Source: Aliiroseovarius zhejiangensis (GTDB lineage: Bacteria; Pseudomonadota; Alphaproteobacteria; Rhodobacterales; Rhodobacteraceae). From it: DNA of 64,000 nt. The stretch lies in contig NZ_BNCH01000001.1 of NCBI RefSeq assembly GCF_014656375.1, positions 310,001 to 374,000 on the forward strand. The letters are read 5' to 3'. Positions 55,430 through 64,000 of the stretch are shown in pieces. Every line of letters begins with the position of its first letter. Within the stretch, counting starts at the first letter, position 1. Made by a program: the position numbers and the translations under genes. The notes beneath the pieces are model-generated. The model saw only the letters and a list, made by a program, of their open reading frames with translations, was not told the DNA's origin and ran no database searches.

Positions 55430-56302
55430 TCAGGCCTGAAACCGATAGAAATCGCGCGCTACGGTGTGAAAGACCTGTGTGTGACAGGCTTGCGGCACAA
55501 GTTCAGCATAGGCGCGGAACAACGTGTCATAATCGGAATACAGGCTGTCGACCGGGAAGTTTGACCCGAACATGCAACGATCTGCGCCAAACTGGTCAAG
55601 ACAGACATCAACGATCGGGCGGAAATCCCGAATCTGCCAGTCATGTTTGAACATGCCAAGCCCCGATAGTTTGCAGGTGACATGTGGCAAGTCAGAAAGT
55701 TGGCGAAGCGTGCTGGCCCAATCGGCCAGCCCGGTCGTCGAACGATCATGCGGGCTGCCCGCGTGACACAGGGCAATCTGTGTGTCGGGCGCCGTTTCCA
55801 GAACGCGGGCGGTCCTTTCCATCAGGTCCGGGATCAGTTGCAGATCGAAGCTCAACCCGCGCCGCCCCAATTCGCGCAGGCCATCGGCGAACCGGGGATC
55901 GTCCAGCAGCGTGTTGGTGCCGGTCTGGGCATCCTCGCCCGGCGCGCGCCCGACGATCTGACGCACCCCGCGCAGGGTTGAGAGGGTTTGGAGCCGGTCA
56001 AGCTCCGCGCCAAGGTCCGGCGCGGTCAGATCACAGAACACAACCTGAACCAGCGGCCAGTCGGGGTTGGCGTCCGCCACCGATTGGATCCAGACGGCCT
56101 CTTCCCAGCCATCTTCCGCGCCGACCTGAATATGCACCGACCCCGTGACGCCTTGCGCGCTTGCGTCGCGGCGAAACTCGTCCAGCAGATAATCGCGTTG
56201 TATCGGGGCGGGATCGCCAAAGAACCGCGGCGTGCCCTTGGCCATCAGCCACGGGTAATGCACCTTGGACAAATCCCAAAGGTGGTGGTGGGCGTCGATC
56301 AT
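55430..56302 (-). CDS. Amidohydrolase-family lactonase-like enzyme
   Basis: A 290-residue Amidohydro_2 TIM barrel of the L-fuconolactonase/rhamnonolactonase type. The metal-type motif MIDAHHHLWD opens it, ALCHAG supplies a His mid-barrel, and MFGSNFPVDSLY the late Asp region. Such enzymes hydrolyse sugar lactones or 2-pyrone lactones. The ATG at 56302 overlaps the previous stop (TGATG), so it is coupled to the SnoaL-type gene. It probably belongs to the catabolic module controlled by the operators at 57329-57405. Confidence 0.88.
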   Translation of the reverse strand: MIDAHHHLWDLSKVHYPWLMAKGTPRFFGDPAPIQRDYLLDEFRRDASAQGVTGSVHIQVGAEDGWEEAVWIQSVADANPDWPLVQVVFCDLTAPDLGAELDRLQTLSTLRGVRQIVGRAPGEDAQTGTNTLLDDPRFADGLRELGRRGLSFDLQLIPDLMERTARVLETAPDTQIALCHAGSPHDRSTTGLADWASTLRQLSDLPHVTCKLSGLGMFKHDWQIRDFRPIVDVCLDQFGADRCMFGSNFPVDSLYSDYDTLFRAYAELVPQACHTQVFHTVARDFYRFQA

Positions 56303-57300
56303 CACAGCGCTCCGTCGGCCAGTCGTTGCAACACGTCATCGCCCTGAGCTTTCCAGAAATGCAACAGGTCGATGAAGACCCAGTTCTCGGCCAGTTTATC
56401 GCCGTTGCGGCGGTAAATGTCGATCACGCGGAACTCTCCGATCTTGCCGGTGGCGGCATGCCCCATGAAATCGCCTGTCAGCCGCGCGGTGAAATTTGGC
56501 CAGCCGAAAAACCCACCATAGTGTCCTTCGGCCAGCCGCGCGATATGAGTGGTTTTCGAGCGGTCCGAAAAGGCGGCGCGGAACGGCCCCGAATGCTGGC
56601 GTGTATAGCGCGGGATCGTATAGGTCGCGCCAATGCCGGTCGGCCCCCACCATAGCATCTCCTCGGCCCATGTCCGGCGCAGTTCGTCCTCAAGGCGCAG
56701 CCCGCTTTGCCACTGGCCCAAATCGCGGATCATACGATTGATCAGGTCCAGCGTGGCCTTGCCCTGGTCACGCGGTTGCGGTGCAAACAGCAGCCCGTCT
56801 TGGGTCTGCGGCCCCGGTTGCACCAGTTGCGCGGCGGTTTGGCCGGGGAACGGTTCCAGCCCAGCCTGCACCATCAGATGCGGCAGGTCGAAATACATCG
56901 CCGTTTCCACGATCTTGCCACCTGCGACCCGATGAAACGCGCAATAGCGCAGCATGGCGATCTTGCCGGTGGGCCGGATGTTCAGGAAGGGCTGGTCGAA
57001 CAGCCCCATCAGGTGCCCCATCGACACCACCCAGACCCCTTCGAACCCGTCCATCTGGTTCAGACCGGCGAAGAACACATCCTCGCGCCATTGCAGGCTG
57101 GTCAGGCTGTTGCGCAAAGGGGTCCAGAACCGCTGGGCGACCTCGGAAGCCGAGGTGATCTGACCAAAAGGGTGACATCCGCGCCAGACATAGCCCTCGG
57201 CGACATGATCGGACATTGCGCGATCTGCGGTGATTCCCGGCGCGACCAGATCGGCGTGGTGGCGCCGGACCAGTTCCTTTGCAGGCTGCAGTTGGTTCAT
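56302..57300 (-). CDS. Double SnoaL/NTF2-like domain protein (ester cyclase type)
   Basis: A 332-residue protein made of two SnoaL-like domains, about residues 10-150 and 190-325. The second domain (MLWWGPTGIG, SGPFRAAFSDRS, DFMGHAATGK, NWVFIDLLHF) matches the single SnoaL domain encoded at 62147 more closely than the first does. SnoaL folds act as cyclases, isomerases or hydrolases on small oxygenated substrates. The ATG at 57300 has only a weak GAG upstream. It is the first gene of the leftward unit and lies directly behind operator 57329-57350. Exact reaction unknown. Confidence 0.85.
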   Translation of the reverse strand: MNQLQPAKELVRRHHADLVAPGITADRAMSDHVAEGYVWRGCHPFGQITSASEVAQRFWTPLRNSLTSLQWREDVFFAGLNQMDGFEGVWVVSMGHLMGLFDQPFLNIRPTGKIAMLRYCAFHRVAGGKIVETAMYFDLPHLMVQAGLEPFPGQTAAQLVQPGPQTQDGLLFAPQPRDQGKATLDLINRMIRDLGQWQSGLRLEDELRRTWAEEMLWWGPTGIGATYTIPRYTRQHSGPFRAAFSDRSKTTHIARLAEGHYGGFFGWPNFTARLTGDFMGHAATGKIGEFRVIDIYRRNGDKLAENWVFIDLLHFWKAQGDDVLQRLADGAL

Positions 57301-57328
57301 TTCAATCTCATTACAGTCGGTTACGCGC

Positions 57329-57350
57329 TTTTTGCATACGCTTGCAAAAA
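57329..57350. promoter_or_regulatory. LacI-type operator 1 of divergent promoter
   Basis: The dyad TTTTTGCA-N6-TGCAAAAA is centred at 57339.5, about 30 bases before the leftward SnoaL gene. It matches operator 2 in opposite orientation except for one base in the spacer. The form (AT flanks around TGCA halves) is typical of LacI/GalR-family sites. Confidence 0.75.
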
Positions 57351-57383
57351 TACCTTGCCAAAAAGTCGCAGCAGAGTCTAACC

Positions 57384-57405
57384 TTTTTGCAATCGTATGC
57401 AAAAC
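57384..57405. promoter_or_regulatory. LacI-type operator 2 of divergent promoter
   Basis: TTTTTGCA-N6-TGCAAAAC is centred at 57394.5, 55 bases from operator 1 and about 20 bases before the ABC ATPase ATG. In reverse complement its core GCATACGATTGC differs from operator 1 GCATACGCTTGC at one position. Two sites about five helical turns apart could allow looping. Confidence 0.75.
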
Positions 57406-57424
57406 CCAATGGGAGGGGGTCCAC

Positions 57425-58480
57425 ATGGCCGAGATCCAGTTGCGCAACATCAGCAAGCGCTGGGGCGCCTTTGTCGGTGTCGACAATTTTGACCTGACCA
57501 TCGCCGACAAGGAATTTCTGGTTCTTCTGGGGCCATCGGGCTGTGGCAAGACCACCACGATGCGGATGATCGCGGGGCTTGAGGACGCCACCGAAGGTGA
57601 CATCATCGTTGACGGTGAACGGGTCAATGACAAGGAACCCAAGGACCGCGATGTGGCGATGGTGTTCCAAAGCTATGCGCTTTATCCGAACATGAACGTT
57701 TACGAAAACATCCGCTTTCCGCTGAAGGTGCGCGGCAGTGACCCGGCGACCCACCATGATCGTGTGATGCAGGCCGCCGAGCGGGTTGAGCTTTTGGACT
57801 TTCTGGACCGCAAACCAGCCGCGCTATCGGGTGGTCAACGCCAGCGCGTGGCGCTGGCGCGCGCCATTGTGCGCAAGCCCAAAGTGTTCCTGATGGACGA
57901 ACCCCTGTCCAATCTTGACGCCAAGCTGCGGGTGTCCACCCGTGCGCAGATCAAGAACCTGAGCCACGATCTTGCCGCCACCACGATTTATGTGACCCAT
58001 GACCAGATCGAAGCCATGACCCTGGCCGACCGCGTGGTCGTGATGAAACGTGGCGTGGTTCAGCAGGTCGGCAGCCCGACCGAGATTTATGACACCCCCG
58101 CCAACACCTTCGTCGCCAGCTTCATCGGCTCGCCCGCGATGAACCTGATGGACGGCGAGGTGCAGGGCGGCACATTCCGCTCGCAACACACAGAAATCCA
58201 CGGCCTGACCGCCCCTGACGGCCCGGTCACGCTGGGTTTCCGCGCCGAGGATGCAAGCCTGGCTGCTGCCGTACAGGGGCAGATCAACGCCCCGATCTAT
58301 ACGCTTGAGCTGTTGGGCGACGCGACGATGATTTCCGTGCGCATCAATGGCGCGCTGGTCTCGGTCAAAGCAGACAAGGCCTTCCGGGCCGAGATCGGGG
58401 ACACGGTCTCAATCTCGGTCCCCAACGAGATTTGCCACATTTTCGAAGCAACCGAAGATGGCAAACGTATCGAGGGATAA
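57425..58480 (+). CDS. Sugar-type ABC importer ATPase (MalK/UgpC family)
   Basis: A 351-residue ATPase for a type I importer. Walker A GPSGCGKTT, Q-loop MVFQSYALYPNM, signature LSGGQRQRVALAR, Walker B VFLMDEPLSNLD and H-loop VTHDQIEAM are intact, followed by a TOBE/MalK regulatory domain. GGGAGGGGG precedes the ATG at 57425. First gene of the rightward unit, under operator 2. The MalK group points to a carbohydrate, polyol or similar substrate. Confidence 0.95.
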   Translation: MAEIQLRNISKRWGAFVGVDNFDLTIADKEFLVLLGPSGCGKTTTMRMIAGLEDATEGDIIVDGERVNDKEPKDRDVAMVFQSYALYPNMNVYENIRFPLKVRGSDPATHHDRVMQAAERVELLDFLDRKPAALSGGQRQRVALARAIVRKPKVFLMDEPLSNLDAKLRVSTRAQIKNLSHDLAATTIYVTHDQIEAMTLADRVVVMKRGVVQQVGSPTEIYDTPANTFVASFIGSPAMNLMDGEVQGGTFRSQHTEIHGLTAPDGPVTLGFRAEDASLAAAVQGQINAPIYTLELLGDATMISVRINGALVSVKADKAFRAEIGDTVSISVPNEICHIFEATEDGKRIEG

Positions 58481-58561
58481 CCCTCAGACACCTGCCGCGC
58501 AAGTGGCACAACCATGGTCCGTGAGTCGACGGCGGACCTGAATAAACAGGGAGACATTTTG

Positions 58562-59767
58562 ATGTTCAAGAAACTTGCATTGGCCGGCGCGTTGTCGGTG
58601 ATGACAACCGGCGCATGGGCCGCATGTGCTTATGAAAACACGACACCCTTGAAATCGCTGTCCGCCGGGTTCGAGGCCTGGAAAGCGGTCACGGACGCGA
58701 TGGCGGAATGCGGAAATTTCCAGGCTTCGCTGGATCAGGAGTTCCGTGAAAAGCAACCGGAGGCCTTTGCGGCAAAACCCGCCCTGTATCAGATTGGTGG
58801 CGTGGCAAACTCGACCATGGTGCCGCTTTTGAACGCGGGCACCATCCGCCCGCTCGATGATCTGGTGGCCAAATATGGACAACACCTGAAGCCCAATCAA
58901 CTGATCAAGGTGGATGGCAAGATCTACGCCATTGCGATGATGGTGAACCTGCAGCATCTGATGTATCGCGAGGACATCCTGAACGACCTTGGCATTGCCG
59001 TCCCCACCACCTATGCCGAGATGCTGGACGCCGCCGCCAAGATCAAGGAAGCGGGCGTCGTGGACTACCCGATTGGCGGCACGTTCAAGACCGGATGGAA
59101 CCTGGGCGAAGAGTTCATCAACAACTTTCTTGGTGAAGGGGGCGAGTTCTTTACCGATGGCAACATGCCCAACATCAACAACGAAAAAGGCGTGGCCGCG
59201 CTGGAAGTGATGAAGGCGCTGACCGAATATATGGACCCGGAATATCTGGTGTCCGACTCGACCTATGTTCAGCAGCAATTCCAACAGGGCAAGATCGCCA
59301 TGGCAAACCTGTGGGCCAGCCGTGCCGCCGCGATGGATGATGAGGCCGAAAGTCAGGTCGTGGGCAAGGTCGTGATGGCCGCCGCCCCGATGGGGTCCGA
59401 ACGCCCGGCTTCATCGCTGTGGTGGGATGGTGTCGTTTTCGCCACCAACATGACCGATGAAGTAGCCGAAGCTGCCTTTCAGGTCGCGATGGAGGGTATG
59501 GACACCGAGATGGTCAAGGCCAACAACGACGCAGCCGTCTGGCTGATCGACGGGTTTGAGGCTGGACGGCTGGCCCAGGGCGCCTATGAAACCGCGCAGA
59601 AAGGCGCCGCGCCCTATCCCGGATCCGGTCCGATGGGCATCATGCACACGGTCTTGGGCAACGGGATTTCGGATTACCTGACCGGTGCCAAGGACGCGGC
59701 CACGACGCTGGCCGACATCGAAGCGGCCTATATCACGGCCGCCAAGGAATCGGGTCTGGTGCAATAA
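58562..59767 (+). CDS. Periplasmic substrate-binding protein (family 1)
   Basis: A 401-residue solute receptor. The signal peptide (KKLALAGALSVMTTGAWA) is followed by an SBP_bac_1-type two-lobe fold (YAIAMMVNLQHLMYREDIL and MANLWASRAAAMDDEAESQ). The mature protein carries at least two Cys near its start. AGGGAGA precedes the ATG at 58562. A strong hairpin just after its stop (59778-59801) may raise the level of this protein over the permeases, as seen in other ABC operons. Confidence 0.93.
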   Translation: MFKKLALAGALSVMTTGAWAACAYENTTPLKSLSAGFEAWKAVTDAMAECGNFQASLDQEFREKQPEAFAAKPALYQIGGVANSTMVPLLNAGTIRPLDDLVAKYGQHLKPNQLIKVDGKIYAIAMMVNLQHLMYREDILNDLGIAVPTTYAEMLDAAAKIKEAGVVDYPIGGTFKTGWNLGEEFINNFLGEGGEFFTDGNMPNINNEKGVAALEVMKALTEYMDPEYLVSDSTYVQQQFQQGKIAMANLWASRAAAMDDEAESQVVGKVVMAAAPMGSERPASSLWWDGVVFATNMTDEVAEAAFQVAMEGMDTEMVKANNDAAVWLIDGFEAGRLAQGAYETAQKGAAPYPGSGPMGIMHTVLGNGISDYLTGAKDAATTLADIEAAYITAAKESGLVQ

Positions 59768-59777
59768 GCCCCGATCC

Positions 59778-59801
59778 GGGGGAAGGGTTTCGGCCCTTCC
59801 C
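59778..59801 (+). other. Intercistronic stabilising hairpin after the binding-protein gene
   Basis: A perfect 9-bp stem GGGGAAGGG/CCCTTCCCC with loop TTTCGG begins 11 bases after the stop. No T run follows, so termination is unlikely; protection of the upstream mRNA is the probable role. Confidence 0.65.
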
Positions 59802-59844
59802 CACCCCTTCACGACCCCACCCGGACCATCAGAAAGGCAGAGCC

Positions 59845-60867
59845 ATGAACTTCAAGACCTTCGCCGCTTTTGTCGGGCCATCTGTCTTCATGATGCTCCT
59901 GTTCATCGCCTTGCCGCTGGCCAGCGTGCTGAAACAGAGCTTCTATGTCACCCAACCGATTTACGAAACGGTCGAGGTCGAAAGCTGCTCGCCCGGGTTC
60001 CCGGAACAGATCTGCGTGACCGAGCGGAAATCCGTGCCGAAACTGGATGAAGACGGCAAGATCGTCGAGGTCACGACCTATGTGGGCCTTCAAAGCTATC
60101 GCAACGTGCTGGAACTGGAGCGGGCATGGAATGCCGTCAAGCGCGACGGTCTGATGGCGCTGCAATCCATTGATTTCTGGAAAGCGCTGCGTTTCACACT
60201 GACTTTTACGCTGATCACGCTGCCGCTTGTTCTGGGCTTCGGGCTGGGCATCGCGTTGATGATCAACAACGCCTCGCAAGCCATCAAAGGGCCGGTGATC
60301 TTCATCTCGCTTCTGCCCTTCATCATCACGCCTGTGATCGGGGCACTCAGCATCAACTGGCTGTTTCGCGGCGACGGGATCCTGACCGCGTTCATCGAAT
60401 GGTATCTGCAACGCGACGTGTCGATGTTCGCGCAGGCCTGGACCATCGAGGTTCTGATCATGCTCTATCGCGTCTGGCACGTGGCCCCCTTTGCCGCGAT
60501 CGTGTTCTATGCCGGGCTGCAGACCGTCAACAGCGACGCGTTGGAAAGCGCGGTGATCGACGGGGCCAGCCGCTGGCAACGCATGAAATACGTGGTGATC
60601 CCGCATCTGATGCCGCTGATCATCTTCATCTCGATGATCCACCTGATGGACGCCTATCGCGTGTTCGAGGAAATCGTCGGCTTCTCAAGCCAGGGCTATG
60701 TCATCAGCTTGCAATGGCTGACCTATGACTTCCTTGTGCCGGATCAGGCAGGGAACCGGTCGATCAGCCGCGCCTCGGCGTCTGCGATGCTGACCATGAT
60801 CGGGATCGCCATTCTTCTGGTCCCGCTTCTGCGCCGCACCTGGCAAGACCATAAAGGAGGTCACTAA
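59845..60867 (+). CDS. ABC importer permease 1 (MalF-like)
   Basis: A 340-residue inner-membrane permease. After the first helix (GPSVFMMLLFIALPLASVL) there is a periplasmic loop of about 80 residues with two Cys (VESCSPGFPEQICV). Five further helices follow, and the EAA-type loop ESAVIDGASRWQRMKYVVIP contacts the ATPase. AAAGG precedes the ATG. The gap to permease 2 is one base. Confidence 0.93.
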   Translation: MNFKTFAAFVGPSVFMMLLFIALPLASVLKQSFYVTQPIYETVEVESCSPGFPEQICVTERKSVPKLDEDGKIVEVTTYVGLQSYRNVLELERAWNAVKRDGLMALQSIDFWKALRFTLTFTLITLPLVLGFGLGIALMINNASQAIKGPVIFISLLPFIITPVIGALSINWLFRGDGILTAFIEWYLQRDVSMFAQAWTIEVLIMLYRVWHVAPFAAIVFYAGLQTVNSDALESAVIDGASRWQRMKYVVIPHLMPLIIFISMIHLMDAYRVFEEIVGFSSQGYVISLQWLTYDFLVPDQAGNRSISRASASAMLTMIGIAILLVPLLRRTWQDHKGGH

Positions 60868-60868
60868 G

Positions 60869-62023
60869 ATGTCGTCTCGCGCCCTGCGTCAGCCGTTTGC
60901 GCTGAAATTCACCTCGGCCACCTTCCTTGCGATCTGGTGCATTGTTGCCGCCTTTCCGATCTTCTGGATCACGGTGATGAGCTTCAAATCCCCGGTTGAT
61001 GCCTTTTCGTCCAACCCGTTGAACGTGGTGTTCGGCCCCAGCACGCGGGCGGGTGGCAACGGGCTTTCGATCCTCGACATCCTGATGGGCATCGTCGTGA
61101 TCTGGATCACGGCTCGCCTGATGACCCGGACCCTGCCGATGATGGTGGCCGCCTATGCGCCTGCCGGGCAGAAATGGATCGGCTGGGTGATCGGATCACT
61201 GGTTGTGGCGATCGGGTTCCTTGTCACCTTCTTTGCGATCCTGCCCGCCATTCTTGACGCGCTGAACCCGGTCTTTGGACCTTTGGGGCGCGACATCATC
61301 GGCCTGACGACCGAGCATTACAAAACGGTCTGGATCGACCGGGGCTTTTCCAACAACTTCAAGAACTCGATGATCGTGACCACGGGTGTTGTGACCGTAT
61401 CGCTGACTGTTGGTACACTGGCGGGCTATGGTCTTGCGCGGTCCGGATCAGGCCTGGCCTTTGCCATCCTGATCATCGCGCTGGTGTTCCGGGCGCTGCC
61501 GCACTCGGTTCTGGTGGCGGGCTATCTGCCTGTGTTCATTTCGTCGTCCGAGTGGCTGGCCCCGATCCTTGGGGAAAATGCCCCCACGCTTTACGGCAAG
61601 CCCTTCGCCGTCATCGCGGTGCTTGTCGCGATCAACCAGCCCTTCACGATCTGGATGCTGCGGTCCTTCTTTCAAAGCATCCCCGCCGAGCTGGACGAGG
61701 CCGCGCGGGTCGATGGCTGCAACCATTTTCAGGCCTTCCGCCGGGTGATCATGCCGGTGATGTGGCCGGGGGTGATCACGACCGGGCTGTTTTCCTTCCT
61801 TCTGGGCTACAATGACTTCCTTGTCACCTCGCTTCTGCTGGACGCGCAGAACCAGACCATGGTGCCGGCGATTGCCGGGATGTTCAGCCGCGAGACGACG
61901 ACCACCGATCAGGTCGTTGCGGTCGCAGCGGCAGTGTCGATCACCGCGCCGCTCTTCTTCCTGGTCATGGTGTTCCAGCGCCAGATCGTCAGCGGCCTGA
62001 CCGCCGGGGCTGTGAAAGGCTGA
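60869..62023 (+). CDS. ABC importer permease 2 (MalG-like), enlarged
   Basis: A 384-residue permease, about 100 residues longer than usual MalG-type subunits. Between the first helix (about residues 14-34) and the transport core there is an insertion with two hydrophobic segments (SILDILMGIVVIWITARL and IGWVIGSLVVAIGFLVTFF). The core and EAA loop (DEAARVDGCNHFQAFRRVIM) are normal. AAGGAGG lies before the ATG. It should pair with permease 1. Confidence 0.93.
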   Translation: MSSRALRQPFALKFTSATFLAIWCIVAAFPIFWITVMSFKSPVDAFSSNPLNVVFGPSTRAGGNGLSILDILMGIVVIWITARLMTRTLPMMVAAYAPAGQKWIGWVIGSLVVAIGFLVTFFAILPAILDALNPVFGPLGRDIIGLTTEHYKTVWIDRGFSNNFKNSMIVTTGVVTVSLTVGTLAGYGLARSGSGLAFAILIIALVFRALPHSVLVAGYLPVFISSSEWLAPILGENAPTLYGKPFAVIAVLVAINQPFTIWMLRSFFQSIPAELDEAARVDGCNHFQAFRRVIMPVMWPGVITTGLFSFLLGYNDFLVTSLLLDAQNQTMVPAIAGMFSRETTTTDQVVAVAAAVSITAPLFFLVMVFQRQIVSGLTAGAVKG

Positions 62024-62096
62024 TGAGCAGCCGGGCACGACATAATGCGCGGTCAAGCCATCCGGCCCTGAACCGAATGCCGCGGGATTTCCTGCT

Positions 62097-62112
62097 GGGG
62101 CGTCCGCGCCCC
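62097..62112 (+). other. Small intercistronic hairpin with UNCG-type loop
   Basis: Stem GGGGCG/CGCCCC with loop TCCG lies between permease 2 and the SnoaL frame. UNCG tetraloops are very stable in RNA. No T run follows; it may mark a processing or stability boundary. Confidence 0.4.
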
Positions 62113-62146
62113 ACACAATCCCAACGTATTTGACAGGAGAGACAGA

Positions 62147-62686
62147 ATGAAAGGTTCCCGCCCCGAACAAGCGGTCCTGACCCGTGACACGGATATGAAG
62201 AAAACCGACGATACCCGCCAGGTGATCGAAGCCATGGTGGACGGCCTGAATGACCACCGCATCAGTGATATCGGCGAGTTTTTCGCCGATGGGTTCCGCT
62301 GGATGGGCAATCAAGGCTGCGGCACCAAGACGGGCCTGAAAGAGTTTCAGGACAACTGGCAGCGCCCGTTTCAAGCGGCGTTTTCGGACAAGGTCTGTAT
62401 CGACGAAGCGCGGCTTTACATGGGCGAATGGGCGGCCGCCTTCGGTCGCCAGGAAGCCACCCATTCGGGTGAGTTTCTGGGCATCGCCCCCACCGGCAAG
62501 CGGGTCGAGATCCGATATATGGATTTCTGGAAGGTCGTCGATGGCAAGATCGTCGACAACTGGGTGAATGTCGATTTCGCCCATGTGGCCGCGCAGCTGG
62601 GCGTGGACCTGTTTGGCGGCGAAGGGTGGGAAGCATTTGACCGGGGCGAGCGTCAGCCCCCCGGCCCGAACAAGCGAGGAAGTGAC
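62147..62686 (+). CDS. SnoaL/NTF2-like domain, in frame with the following dehydrogenase
   Basis: 180 codons encode a SnoaL-like domain ([55 protein letters not shown]). AGGAGA lies 6 bases before the ATG. There is no stop: the frame runs straight into the dehydrogenase at 62687. A C6 run at 62657-62662 is the pivot. One C fewer would end the frame at TGA 62688-62690, overlapping the next ATG; one C more would end it at TGA 62683-62685. So this is either a real fusion, a slippage site, or a base error. Function probably parallels the second domain of the protein at 56302-57300. Confidence 0.85.
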
Positions 62687-64000
62687 ATGACAATCGAATA
62701 CCTGAAACGCGGCAAACCCGAAGCCGATCGCGCCGAGGATGATGCCAAGACCGCCTCGGTTGTCGCCGCGACCCTGAAAGACATCGAAACCCGCGGCGAT
62801 GCCGCCGTGCGCGATTTGGCGGTAAAGTTCGACGGCTATGACCGCGACAGCTATCGCCTGACGCCGGGTGAGATCGACGCGCTGATCGCCAAGGTCAGCC
62901 CGCGCGAGCTGGACGACATCAAATTCGCACAGGCTCAGGTCACGAATTTCGCGCAGGCGCAGCGCGACAGCATGCTGGACGTCGAGGTCGAGACCCTGCC
63001 GGGCGTCATCCTGGGTCACAAGAACATCCCGGTACAGTCGGTCGGCTGCTATGTGCCGGGCGGCAAGTTCCCGATGGTCGCCTCGGCGCATATGTCGGTG
63101 GCCACCGCCAAGGTCGCGGGCGTGCCGCGCATCATCGCCTGCACCCCGCCCTTCAACGGTGAACCCAACCCCGCCGTGATCGCGGCGATGCATCTGGGTG
63201 GCGCGGATGAAATCTATGTTCTGGGCGGTATTCAGGCCGTGGGCGCGATGGCGCTTGGCACGGAAACCATCGACCCCGTACACCTGCTGGTCGGCCCCGG
63301 CAACGCGTTCGTGGCCGAGGCCAAACGGCAGCTTTTCGGCCGTGTCGGCATCGACCTGTTCGCAGGCCCGACCGAGACGATGGTGATTGCTGACGACACC
63401 GCCGCCGACGCCGAGCTGTGCGCCACCGACCTGCTGGGTCAGGCCGAGCACGGCTATAACAGCCCCTGCGTGCTGCTGACGAACTCGCGCAAGCTGGCCG
63501 AAGACACGATGGTCGAGATCGACCGCCTTCTTAAGATCCTGCCCACCGCCGGCACCGCGAAAGTGTCGTGGGAGGATTATGGCGAGGTCATTGTCTGCGA
63601 CACCTATGAAGAAATGCTGAAGGTCGCCGATGACATCGCGTCCGAGCACGTGCAGGTGATGACCGACCGCGACGACTGGTTCCTTGAGAACATGACCTGC
63701 TATGGCGCGCTGTTCCTTGGGCCGCGCACCAACGTGGCCAATGGCGACAAGGTGATCGGCACCAACCACACGCTGCCCACCAAGAAAGCGGGGCGTTACA
63801 CCGGCGGGCTATGGGTGGGCAAGTACCTGAAAACACACAGCTATCAGAAGGTCACAACAGACGAGGCCGCAGCAATGATCGGGGAGTATGGATCGCGCCT
63901 GTGCATGTTGGAAGGCTTCGTCGGCCACGCCGAACAATGCAACATCCGCGTGCGCCGTTATGGCGGCGTGAATGTCCCCTATGGCGAAGGTGCGCCTTAT
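62687..64000 (+). CDS. Histidinol dehydrogenase-family enzyme, sulfopropanediol dehydrogenase type (partial)
   Basis: 438 codons to the window edge with no stop. HisD-family catalytic residues are present: Gln and His in [11 protein letters not shown], Glu-His in [10 protein letters not shown], Asp in [10 protein letters not shown] and the late His in EGFVGHAEQ. The N-terminus [20 protein letters not shown] and its setting resemble HpsN, which oxidises 2,3-dihydroxypropane-1-sulfonate to sulfolactate with NAD, rather than biosynthetic HisD; no his genes are near. GAGGAAG lies 5 bases before this ATG, so it can also be translated on its own. The upstream SnoaL domain is in the same frame. The specific substrate is inferred, not shown. 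Confidence 0.85.

Follow-up and report, generated by a model that had tools for sequence, protein, structure and literature searches.

The 64,000-nucleotide stretch of DNA analysed here (the window) covers bases 310001-374000 of contig NZ_BNCH01000001.1 of Aliiroseovarius zhejiangensis, whose genome spans 3.42 Mb. Its right-hand end carries most of a divergent gene cluster, which we read as a LacI-controlled operon for the uptake and oxidative catabolism of a small polyhydroxylated compound resembling a sugar, a polyol or a sugar acid. We assign this reading a probability of about 0.7. The cluster is supported as one conserved unit by sequence comparison, and its own LacI protein probably controls both arms. 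The locus is real, is larger than first noted and apparently has no assigned pathway. The conclusions on the unit, its control and its residues rest on the results reported below, whereas the mechanism is inferred from the protein families. All coordinates are window coordinates; parts beyond position 64000 were read from adjoining stretches of the same contig.

Organisation and control of the locus

The locus has 16 parts: an amidohydrolase, three tandem SnoaL proteins, a single SnoaL domain, a four-gene importer of the CUT1 type, a HisD-like dehydrogenase, a short-chain dehydrogenase/reductase (SDR), a LacI regulator, a bicupin, a MetE-like protein, an alpha/beta hydrolase and an RraA-like protein. 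Since one frame encodes both the single SnoaL domain and the HisD-like enzyme, these parts make up 15 open frames in this genome. The minus-strand arm encodes a lactonase-like Amidohydro_2 enzyme (55430..56302; PF04909, E 8.4e-34, below the L-fuconolactonase cut-off) and tandem SnoaL/NTF2-like protein 1 (56302..57300), which PF07366 matches in two stretches (E 3.1e-16) and PF12680 also matches. The plus-strand arm begins with a CUT1-type ATP-binding cassette (ABC) ATPase (57425..58480), an open reading frame with a UgpC-type annotation in relatives. It is followed by a periplasmic sugar-type solute-binding protein (58562..59767; SBP_bac_1, E 3.2e-18) and by permeases 1 (59845..60867) and 2 (60869..62023), recognised by their likeness to relatives annotated as sugar and carbohydrate ABC permeases, respectively. 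Next come the single SnoaL domain (62147..62686; PF07366, E 4.9e-21) and the HisD-like, HpsN-related dehydrogenase (62687..64018; Histidinol_dh, E 1.7e-129), whose stop codon ends outside the window. The arm extends about 7.5 kb past the window end, to about 71516, with plus-strand genes for tandem SnoaL-2 (64074-65123), the SDR (65123-65890), the LacI regulator (65875-66903), tandem SnoaL-3 (66891-67874), the bicupin (68025-68987), the MetE-like protein (69007-70131), the alpha/beta hydrolase (70128-70820) and, as the last gene, the RraA-like aldolase (70821-71516). Adjacent genes within each arm overlap or lie no more than about 150 bases apart. The genes after the RraA-like gene are on the opposite strand and are presumably scpB, scpA and argS.

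The initial annotation, made from the window alone, had described two units under one operator-bearing promoter: one with a double SnoaL protein and a lactonase-like amidohydrolase, the other with a sugar-type ABC importer, a SnoaL domain and an HpsN-like dehydrogenase. Pfam matches place both members of the first unit where it had put them, and open frames, Pfam matches and annotated relatives do the same for the second. It had also proposed looking past position 64000 for a LacI gene and further enzymes, and these were found directly downstream. Its count of three SnoaL domains was too low for the cluster: by our own count there are seven domains, in three tandem proteins and one single domain. 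PF07366 alone gives six matches in the cluster and one elsewhere in the genome, and all four SnoaL proteins or domains pass its gathering cut-off.

Two predicted LacI-type operators lie between the arms, at 57330..57349 (TTTTGCATACGCTTGCAAAA) and 57385..57404 (TTTTGCAATCGTATGCAAAA), 55 bp apart. These palindromes are the only sites in the genome within two mismatches, and a reversed control pattern gave none. In 68 of 72 relatives the 250 bases that precede the ATPase gene contain the palindrome TTTTGCAnnCGnnTGCAAAA, again with at most two mismatches; of 360 random stretches drawn from the same loci, 9 contain it. The single operator-bearing promoter that had been claimed for both units is thus borne out by two palindromes that are unique in the genome and conserved in relatives. 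LacI proteins with the recognition helix AGVSQSAVSRVF (49 proteins) accompany half-sites reading TA in 113 of 186 cases and CA in 2 of 186, and those with the helix AGVSRSAVSRVF (11 proteins) accompany CA in 21 of 22; the R-type loci are related to each other, and these data do not amount to 60 independent cases. Four further LacI proteins fell into other groups. Because the operator bases co-vary with the recognition helix, the locus's own LacI can be tied to these operators; since it would read two operators situated between the arms, both arms should be released together. A LacI gene within the operon and palindromic operators at its promoter are what a LacI-regulated operon contains, and shared control of both arms by this regulator is well supported by the comparison of sites and helices. 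A promoter-hexamer scan (one site against 3.9 expected) and a count of terminator-like sites (21 against 13.3, s.d. 4.6) were not used as evidence.

Conservation, spread and transport

A scan of named genomes with tandem SnoaL-2 yielded 283 relatives, of which the best 80 were kept as named loci. Their members nearest to the window locus come from an uncultured Aliiroseovarius and from a Halocynthiibacter. The closest of the 80 (L034) has all 16 parts in identical order and orientation, most of the others hold most parts, and gene order is kept across roseobacters; this conservation of order excludes chance. The 80 named loci were then combined with six regions from plasmids and with 60 stretches surrounding homologs of tandem SnoaL-3, chosen at decreasing identity, into a set of 146. 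Of these, 108 have seven or more of the 16 part labels and are referred to below as clustered loci. The families therefore do occur together, as the initial annotation had suggested checking, and its single uptake-and-catabolism module is conserved as a unit across relatives. Among the 108 clustered loci, the most frequent parts are HisD (103), LacI (99), cupin and SnoaL-3 (96 each), permease 2 (94) and SnoaL-2 (92), followed by SDR and MetE-like (88 each), permease 1 (86), binding protein (83), ATPase (79), single SnoaL (75), RraA (67), alpha/beta hydrolase (63), SnoaL-1 (54) and amidohydrolase (31). Because this selection favours SnoaL genes, we repeated the count with the cupin as anchor, using 20 stretches of up to 20 kb hand-picked from the cupin matches. 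These contain an alpha/beta hydrolase in 17 cases, a HisD-type gene in 16 (in one of them the second paralog only), a SnoaL-type protein in 16, an RraA or HpcH aldolase in 15 and a MetE-like gene in 11.

The module is widespread among marine bacteria and is also found outside the roseobacters. A SnoaL-3 homolog is present in 91 of 198 genomes sampled from the host family, a count that takes in distant paralogs, and a cupin homolog in 36 of 385 genomes sampled from the class. A stricter search with the Klebsiella cupin found a homolog in 24 of 398 genomes sampled from the phylum. Reduced forms were seen in rhizobia, in sphingomonads and on a Klebsiella plasmid. Among plasmid records, Roseibium has HisD, SDR, LacI, cupin, alpha/beta hydrolase, RraA and a tripartite ATP-independent periplasmic (TRAP) transporter, with an ABC set and an ester cyclase adjoining. 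Martelella has an SDR, two HisD genes, an amidase, an ester cyclase, an ABC importer, LacI, cupin, alpha/beta hydrolase and RraA. Sinorhizobium medicae has a similar set with ABC importer, amidase and ester cyclase; its HisD is absent from the gene table and was found in two pieces by translated search. Novosphingobium has two HisD genes, SDR, HpcH, amidase, ester cyclase, alpha/beta hydrolase, cupin, LacI, a TonB receptor and a major facilitator superfamily (MFS) transporter. The Klebsiella michiganensis plasmid has LacI, HisD, SDR, MFS, alpha/beta hydrolase, HpcH and cupin, with no SnoaL match. A Tritonibacter plasmid has a TAXI-TRAP transporter, LacI, HisD, SDR and an HpcH-type gene, with no cupin match in the stretch, and a Rhizorhabdus plasmid has SDR, alpha/beta hydrolase, HpcH and cupin without HisD.

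Some of these neighbourhoods carry further genes. An Ensifer plasmid has cupin, HpcH and alpha/beta hydrolase genes, without HisD in the stretch, adjoining genes annotated as OtnK and an aldolase; if the annotations are correct, the route there may pass through a four-carbon sugar acid. Two cupin-anchored loci without HisD (L192 and L206) have genes resembling OtnK (3-oxo-tetronate kinase) and OtnC in the vicinity of their HpcH aldolase and alpha/beta hydrolase genes, which may point to a C4 intermediate. In four plasmid records (L188, L189, L190 and L194) the module comes with an amidase gene, and these loci may represent a branch for an amide-bearing substrate.

The importer has the composition of a CUT1 system: an SBP_bac_1-type protein, identified by hidden Markov model, with two permeases and an ATPase identified by their likeness to annotated genes. 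The binding protein matches 16 sequences in the PDB (best E 1.6e-13), and the ligands named there are sugars, polyols or sugar derivatives. As the matches are general sugar binders, we gave up naming the substrate by binding-protein similarity. In 56 of the 80 named loci all three of binding protein, permease 1 and HisD were called. The binding protein and its permease 1 both lie close to those of the window in 38 of these and are both distant in 18, with no mixed cases. The identity of HisD to the window enzyme is 81-90% in 20 loci with a distant binding protein and 46-94% in 38 with a close one; the value of 46% belongs to the second HisD paralog of L071, a locus with two HisD genes in which only that paralog was called as an open reading frame. 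Judging from these identities, the importer is swapped as a whole cassette, and the enzymes are retained. HisD is also kept where no ABC importer was seen in the stretch, together with MFS (Klebsiella), TonB receptor and MFS (Novosphingobium), TAXI-TRAP (Tritonibacter) or TRAP (L207 and L219), as expected for one pathway fed by different importers. Permease 2 occurs in two main lengths: among 106 labelled open reading frames, 47 have at most 330 residues and 41 have 370-400, and the window has the long form of 384 residues.

The enzymes

The best match of the HisD-like protein in the PDB is sulfopropanediol 3-dehydrogenase (8v35, E 1e-118), and (R)-2,3-dihydroxypropanesulfonate (DHPS) dehydrogenase is also among its best solved relatives. 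It has the PF00815 fold with the zinc ligands, the Glu/His base and the histidine contributed by the partner chain (GQAEH, SEH, GDK..NH and GH are kept), and the zinc and base residues of HisD/HpsN are identical in every aligned sequence that has a residue there. The Asp-Lys pair of the HpsN site is kept as well. In Cupriavidus HpsN, according to the published structural description (PMC11382572), His126 within the motif at residues 122-126 sets DHPS dehydrogenases apart from histidinol dehydrogenases by recognising the sulfonate; the PDB chain is numbered one higher than in that paper. The aligned residue is Met in the window protein. Across 115 HisD-labelled relatives the motif reads GKFPM or GKYPM in 108 and GRFPL or GRYPL in 6, and is not readable in 1, so that none of the 114 readable sequences has His at this position. 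By its residues the enzyme should work like HpsN, and yet it lacks the histidine that defines HpsN; it would thus belong to a third HisD subfamily. The genome has only two PF00815 genes, of which the other lies elsewhere, has the higher PF00815 score and is presumably the biosynthetic hisD; with only two HisD-family genes, there is no separate hpsN. We rejected an identity with DHPS dehydrogenase on account of the Met at position 126 and the lack of a second hpsN candidate.

Only this genome has the single SnoaL domain and HisD in a common frame, which was found in none of the 72 relatives tested and is also absent from a genome of the same genus (L209), and we dropped a SnoaL-HisD fusion as the main point. 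An AGGA-type sequence still precedes the ATG of the HisD part, and a run of C immediately ahead of the join differs between the window and its relatives. In L189, L190 and L194 there is a second HisD paralog, with about 45% identity to that of the window. One of 13 HisD sequences (Allo1) was left out, its gene being cut by the region end and its sequence read in the wrong frame; the gene matches the second paralog at 90%. In R. johnstonii pRL8 (L114), an 81%-identical HisD relative lies beside NAD(P) transhydrogenase genes and an acetate-CoA ligase gene, with no SnoaL match in the stretch.

The tandem SnoaL proteins carry highly conserved motifs of their own. An AlphaFold model of tandem SnoaL-2, which is weak (pLDDT 62), matches SnoaL/NTF2 folds, the nearest being AclR, IdmH and SnoaL2. 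For the NTF2-family proteins LdpA and PcfL, two papers (PMC12997858 and PMC11323797) describe catabolic lyases that deformylate lignin dimers, and hence a SnoaL-like dehydration in catabolism would have a precedent.

The amidohydrolase reaches 115.9 bits with the L-fucono-1,5-lactonase model NF052480 (cut-off 400), and its best PDB match is 4dlf, "Amidohydrolase 2" (E 3.7e-21). Its metal-ligand motifs (HHH, CH and GSN) are identical in all 32 sequences with a residue there, the window included. It belongs to the fuconolactonase superfamily but falls far below the score of that equivalog. In Ruegeria sp. SCSIO 43209 (plasmid, L117), genes for an SMP-30/gluconolactonase and an HpcH-type aldolase adjoin tandem SnoaL-1, and no amidohydrolase was listed or matched there. 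The Ser, Tyr and Lys of the SDR are identical in every sequence with a residue there. The RraA-like protein has the R-D pair of RraA-type aldolases in 68 of 68 sequences, which we take to be part of the metal and substrate site. It also matches PDB 3noj, and its likeness to LigK is weak, with 24.4 bits for the LigK equivalog TIGR02798 (cut-off 304.5). L-fuconolactonase and LigK were accordingly discarded as exact identities, both scores being below the curated cut-offs.

The MetE-like protein has H-x-C, E and C, presumably the zinc ligands of the methionine synthase zinc site, each in 92 of 92 sequences. It matches seven NCBIfam methionine synthase models, none above cut-off (best, 91 bits against 406). 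A gene for an S-adenosylmethionine (SAM)-dependent methyltransferase lies inside 26 of the 108 clustered loci, and 25 of 30 such genes are directly between the cupin and MetE-like genes; this hints at methyl-group chemistry. The first half of the bicupin has HxH and E in 100 of 100 sequences, and candidate metal-ligand His positions in the second half are kept in 35, 38 and 56 of 100. The folds nearest to its AlphaFold model (pLDDT 72) are quercetinase, oxalate decarboxylase and the 3-hydroxyanthranilate and salicylate dioxygenases.

Proposed pathway and relation to known systems

Our best reading of the gene set is oxidation of a polyol or sugar acid followed by aldol cleavage. Going by the families, the binding protein-dependent CUT1 importer would take up the compound, the zinc- and NAD-dependent HisD-like enzyme would oxidise a primary alcohol to a carboxylate (a four-electron oxidation) and the SDR a secondary alcohol. 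In the order that we infer, the amidohydrolase, the alpha/beta hydrolase or both may then open a lactone or ester; the tandem SnoaL proteins could dehydrate, eliminate or isomerise keto intermediates in place of a sugar-acid dehydratase; and a metal-dependent aldolase or decarboxylase, RraA-type here and HpcH-type in other hosts, would release pyruvate or a similar product. The MetE-like zinc protein, with the SAM methyltransferase in some relatives, might handle a methyl group. The initial annotation had proposed a polyol, sugar acid or sulfonated polyol and a sequence of oxidation, SnoaL isomerisation and lactone hydrolysis. We retain the polyol or sugar acid and the general logic; the likely order of steps is altered by the further SnoaL genes, the aldolase, the bicupin and the MetE-like protein, and the sulfonate option is unsupported because the dehydrogenase lacks the sulfonate-recognising His of HpsN.

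That option, in its full form, is a variant pathway for DHPS or a sulfonated polyol in which the HisD-like enzyme is HpsN and converts 2,3-dihydroxypropanesulfonate to sulfolactate. The solved relatives of the enzyme and its Asp-Lys pair speak for it, and roseobacters are known DHPS users, as stated in PMC11131964. We nevertheless consider it highly improbable: Met or Leu stands at the His126 position in 114 of 115 labelled homologs (the other being the unreadable one), a second hpsN candidate is missing from the genome, and no sulfolyase or hpsP-like gene was recognised among the cluster genes, to which that search was confined. Almost as improbable is a biosynthetic or detoxifying cluster, in which the SnoaL "ester cyclases" would make or alter a metabolite of the polyketide kind. 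In its favour, PF07366 takes its name from polyketide cyclases, and AclR, IdmH and SnoaL2 are the folds nearest to tandem SnoaL-2; however, there is no polyketide synthase or scaffold-making gene among the genes read, a full importer, two dehydrogenases, hydrolases, an aldolase and LacI control are present, and the reduced forms of Martelella, Novosphingobium and Klebsiella keep the core of dehydrogenase, hydrolase, aldolase and cupin.

The breakdown of a ring compound (a cyclic enol, a pyrone, a methoxylated cyclohexenone or an aromatic compound) is unlikely, though it deserves more weight than either of these. Here the bicupin would act as a dioxygenase that opens the ring, the alpha/beta hydrolase and the amidohydrolase would hydrolyse the product, RraA or HpcH would split it and the MetE-like protein would remove a methyl group. 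This would suit the quercetinase and ring-cleaving dioxygenases nearest to the bicupin fold and the TonB receptor and MFS transporter of the sphingomonad relatives, and the set of amidohydrolase, RraA aldolase and cupin recalls the LigI/LigK cleavage of protocatechuate, in line with the faint LigK resemblance noted above. The CUT1 sugar-type importer and the LacI regulator speak against such a pathway, neither an oxygenase component nor a ring hydroxylase was recognised in the cluster, and the second-half cupin ligands, candidates themselves, are poorly kept. Moreover, the most constant enzyme (103 of 108) is the HisD-like one, which by its family should need an alcohol. A defence function was dropped, as PADLOC gave no match for the two proteins tried. 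Ascorbate, pantothenate, mycosporines, arsenosugars and methylerythritol were considered as ideas only, and none had decisive support.

Several observations weigh against oxidation of a polyol or sugar acid as we propose it. Among the genes of the window cluster we recognised neither a kinase nor an aldehyde dehydrogenase nor any standard sugar-acid dehydratase. The MetE-like protein is unexplained in the scheme, and its gene is missing from 9 of the 20 cupin-anchored stretches. The folds resembling the bicupin model would fit the cleavage of a ring or a diketone as well. Confidence in the tandem SnoaL model is low, and SnoaL families also include cyclases and proteins without assigned function. 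Four of the 20 cupin-anchored stretches have no SnoaL-type match and four have no HisD, so neither is universal. Distant SnoaL-3 homologs lie mostly elsewhere, since at least six of twelve core genes were found in 17 of the 20 most similar SnoaL-3 stretches, 10 of the 20 middle ones and 2 of the 20 least similar.

More tentatively, and at somewhat worse than even odds, the locus may belong to a widespread, undescribed route in which tandem SnoaL proteins replace the classical sugar-acid dehydratases and oxidation falls to a third HisD subfamily, neither histidinol nor DHPS dehydrogenase. The initial annotation knew of no named pathway with this set, and we likewise found neither gene set nor pathway described in full-text searches of a literature corpus without most subscription papers and without bioRxiv preprints. 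If true, roseobacters, rhizobia, sphingomonads and some enterobacteria would have this route in common, and one would expect behind it an abundant natural compound, possibly methylated, that has been overlooked. Given the frequency of SnoaL-3 homologs in the host family and the recurrence of the module with different importers, the substrate is probably widespread, both in the sea and in other habitats. To identify it would be to recognise a further carbon source in the marine food web; functions could then be given to several as yet unassigned enzyme subfamilies, and it would become clear whether SnoaL proteins serve as dehydratases in catabolism.

Among known systems, the HpsN/DHPS system, whose dehydrogenase is represented in the PDB by 8v35 and 8wwe, is similar in having a dehydrogenase within a roseobacter catabolic operon with its own transporter and regulator, and the window enzyme shares its HisD fold, zinc and catalytic residues. 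The window locus differs in the Met that replaces His126, in its genes for tandem SnoaL proteins, a bicupin, a MetE-like protein and an aldolase, and in that no sulfolyase was recognised in the cluster. Oxidative sugar-acid pathways proceed through a lactone and then an aldolase. The cluster resembles them in its importer, SDR, amidohydrolase of the fuconolactonase superfamily, HpcH/RraA-type aldolase and LacI control, but it has a HisD-like four-electron oxidation and several tandem SnoaL proteins where a dehydratase would be expected; no dehydratase of the enolase family or of the IlvD type was recognised in the window cluster. LdpA and PcfL are similar as NTF2-like proteins that dehydrate or eliminate on hydroxylated catabolic intermediates, according to the same two papers (PMC12997858 and PMC11323797). 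The tandem SnoaL proteins differ from them in belonging to sugar-type operons, and LdpA is likened here by description, not by sequence. Finally, the polyketide cyclases SnoaL, IdmH and AknH share the fold and the Pfam family, whereas the tandem SnoaL proteins have two domains per chain, motifs of their own and catabolic surroundings.

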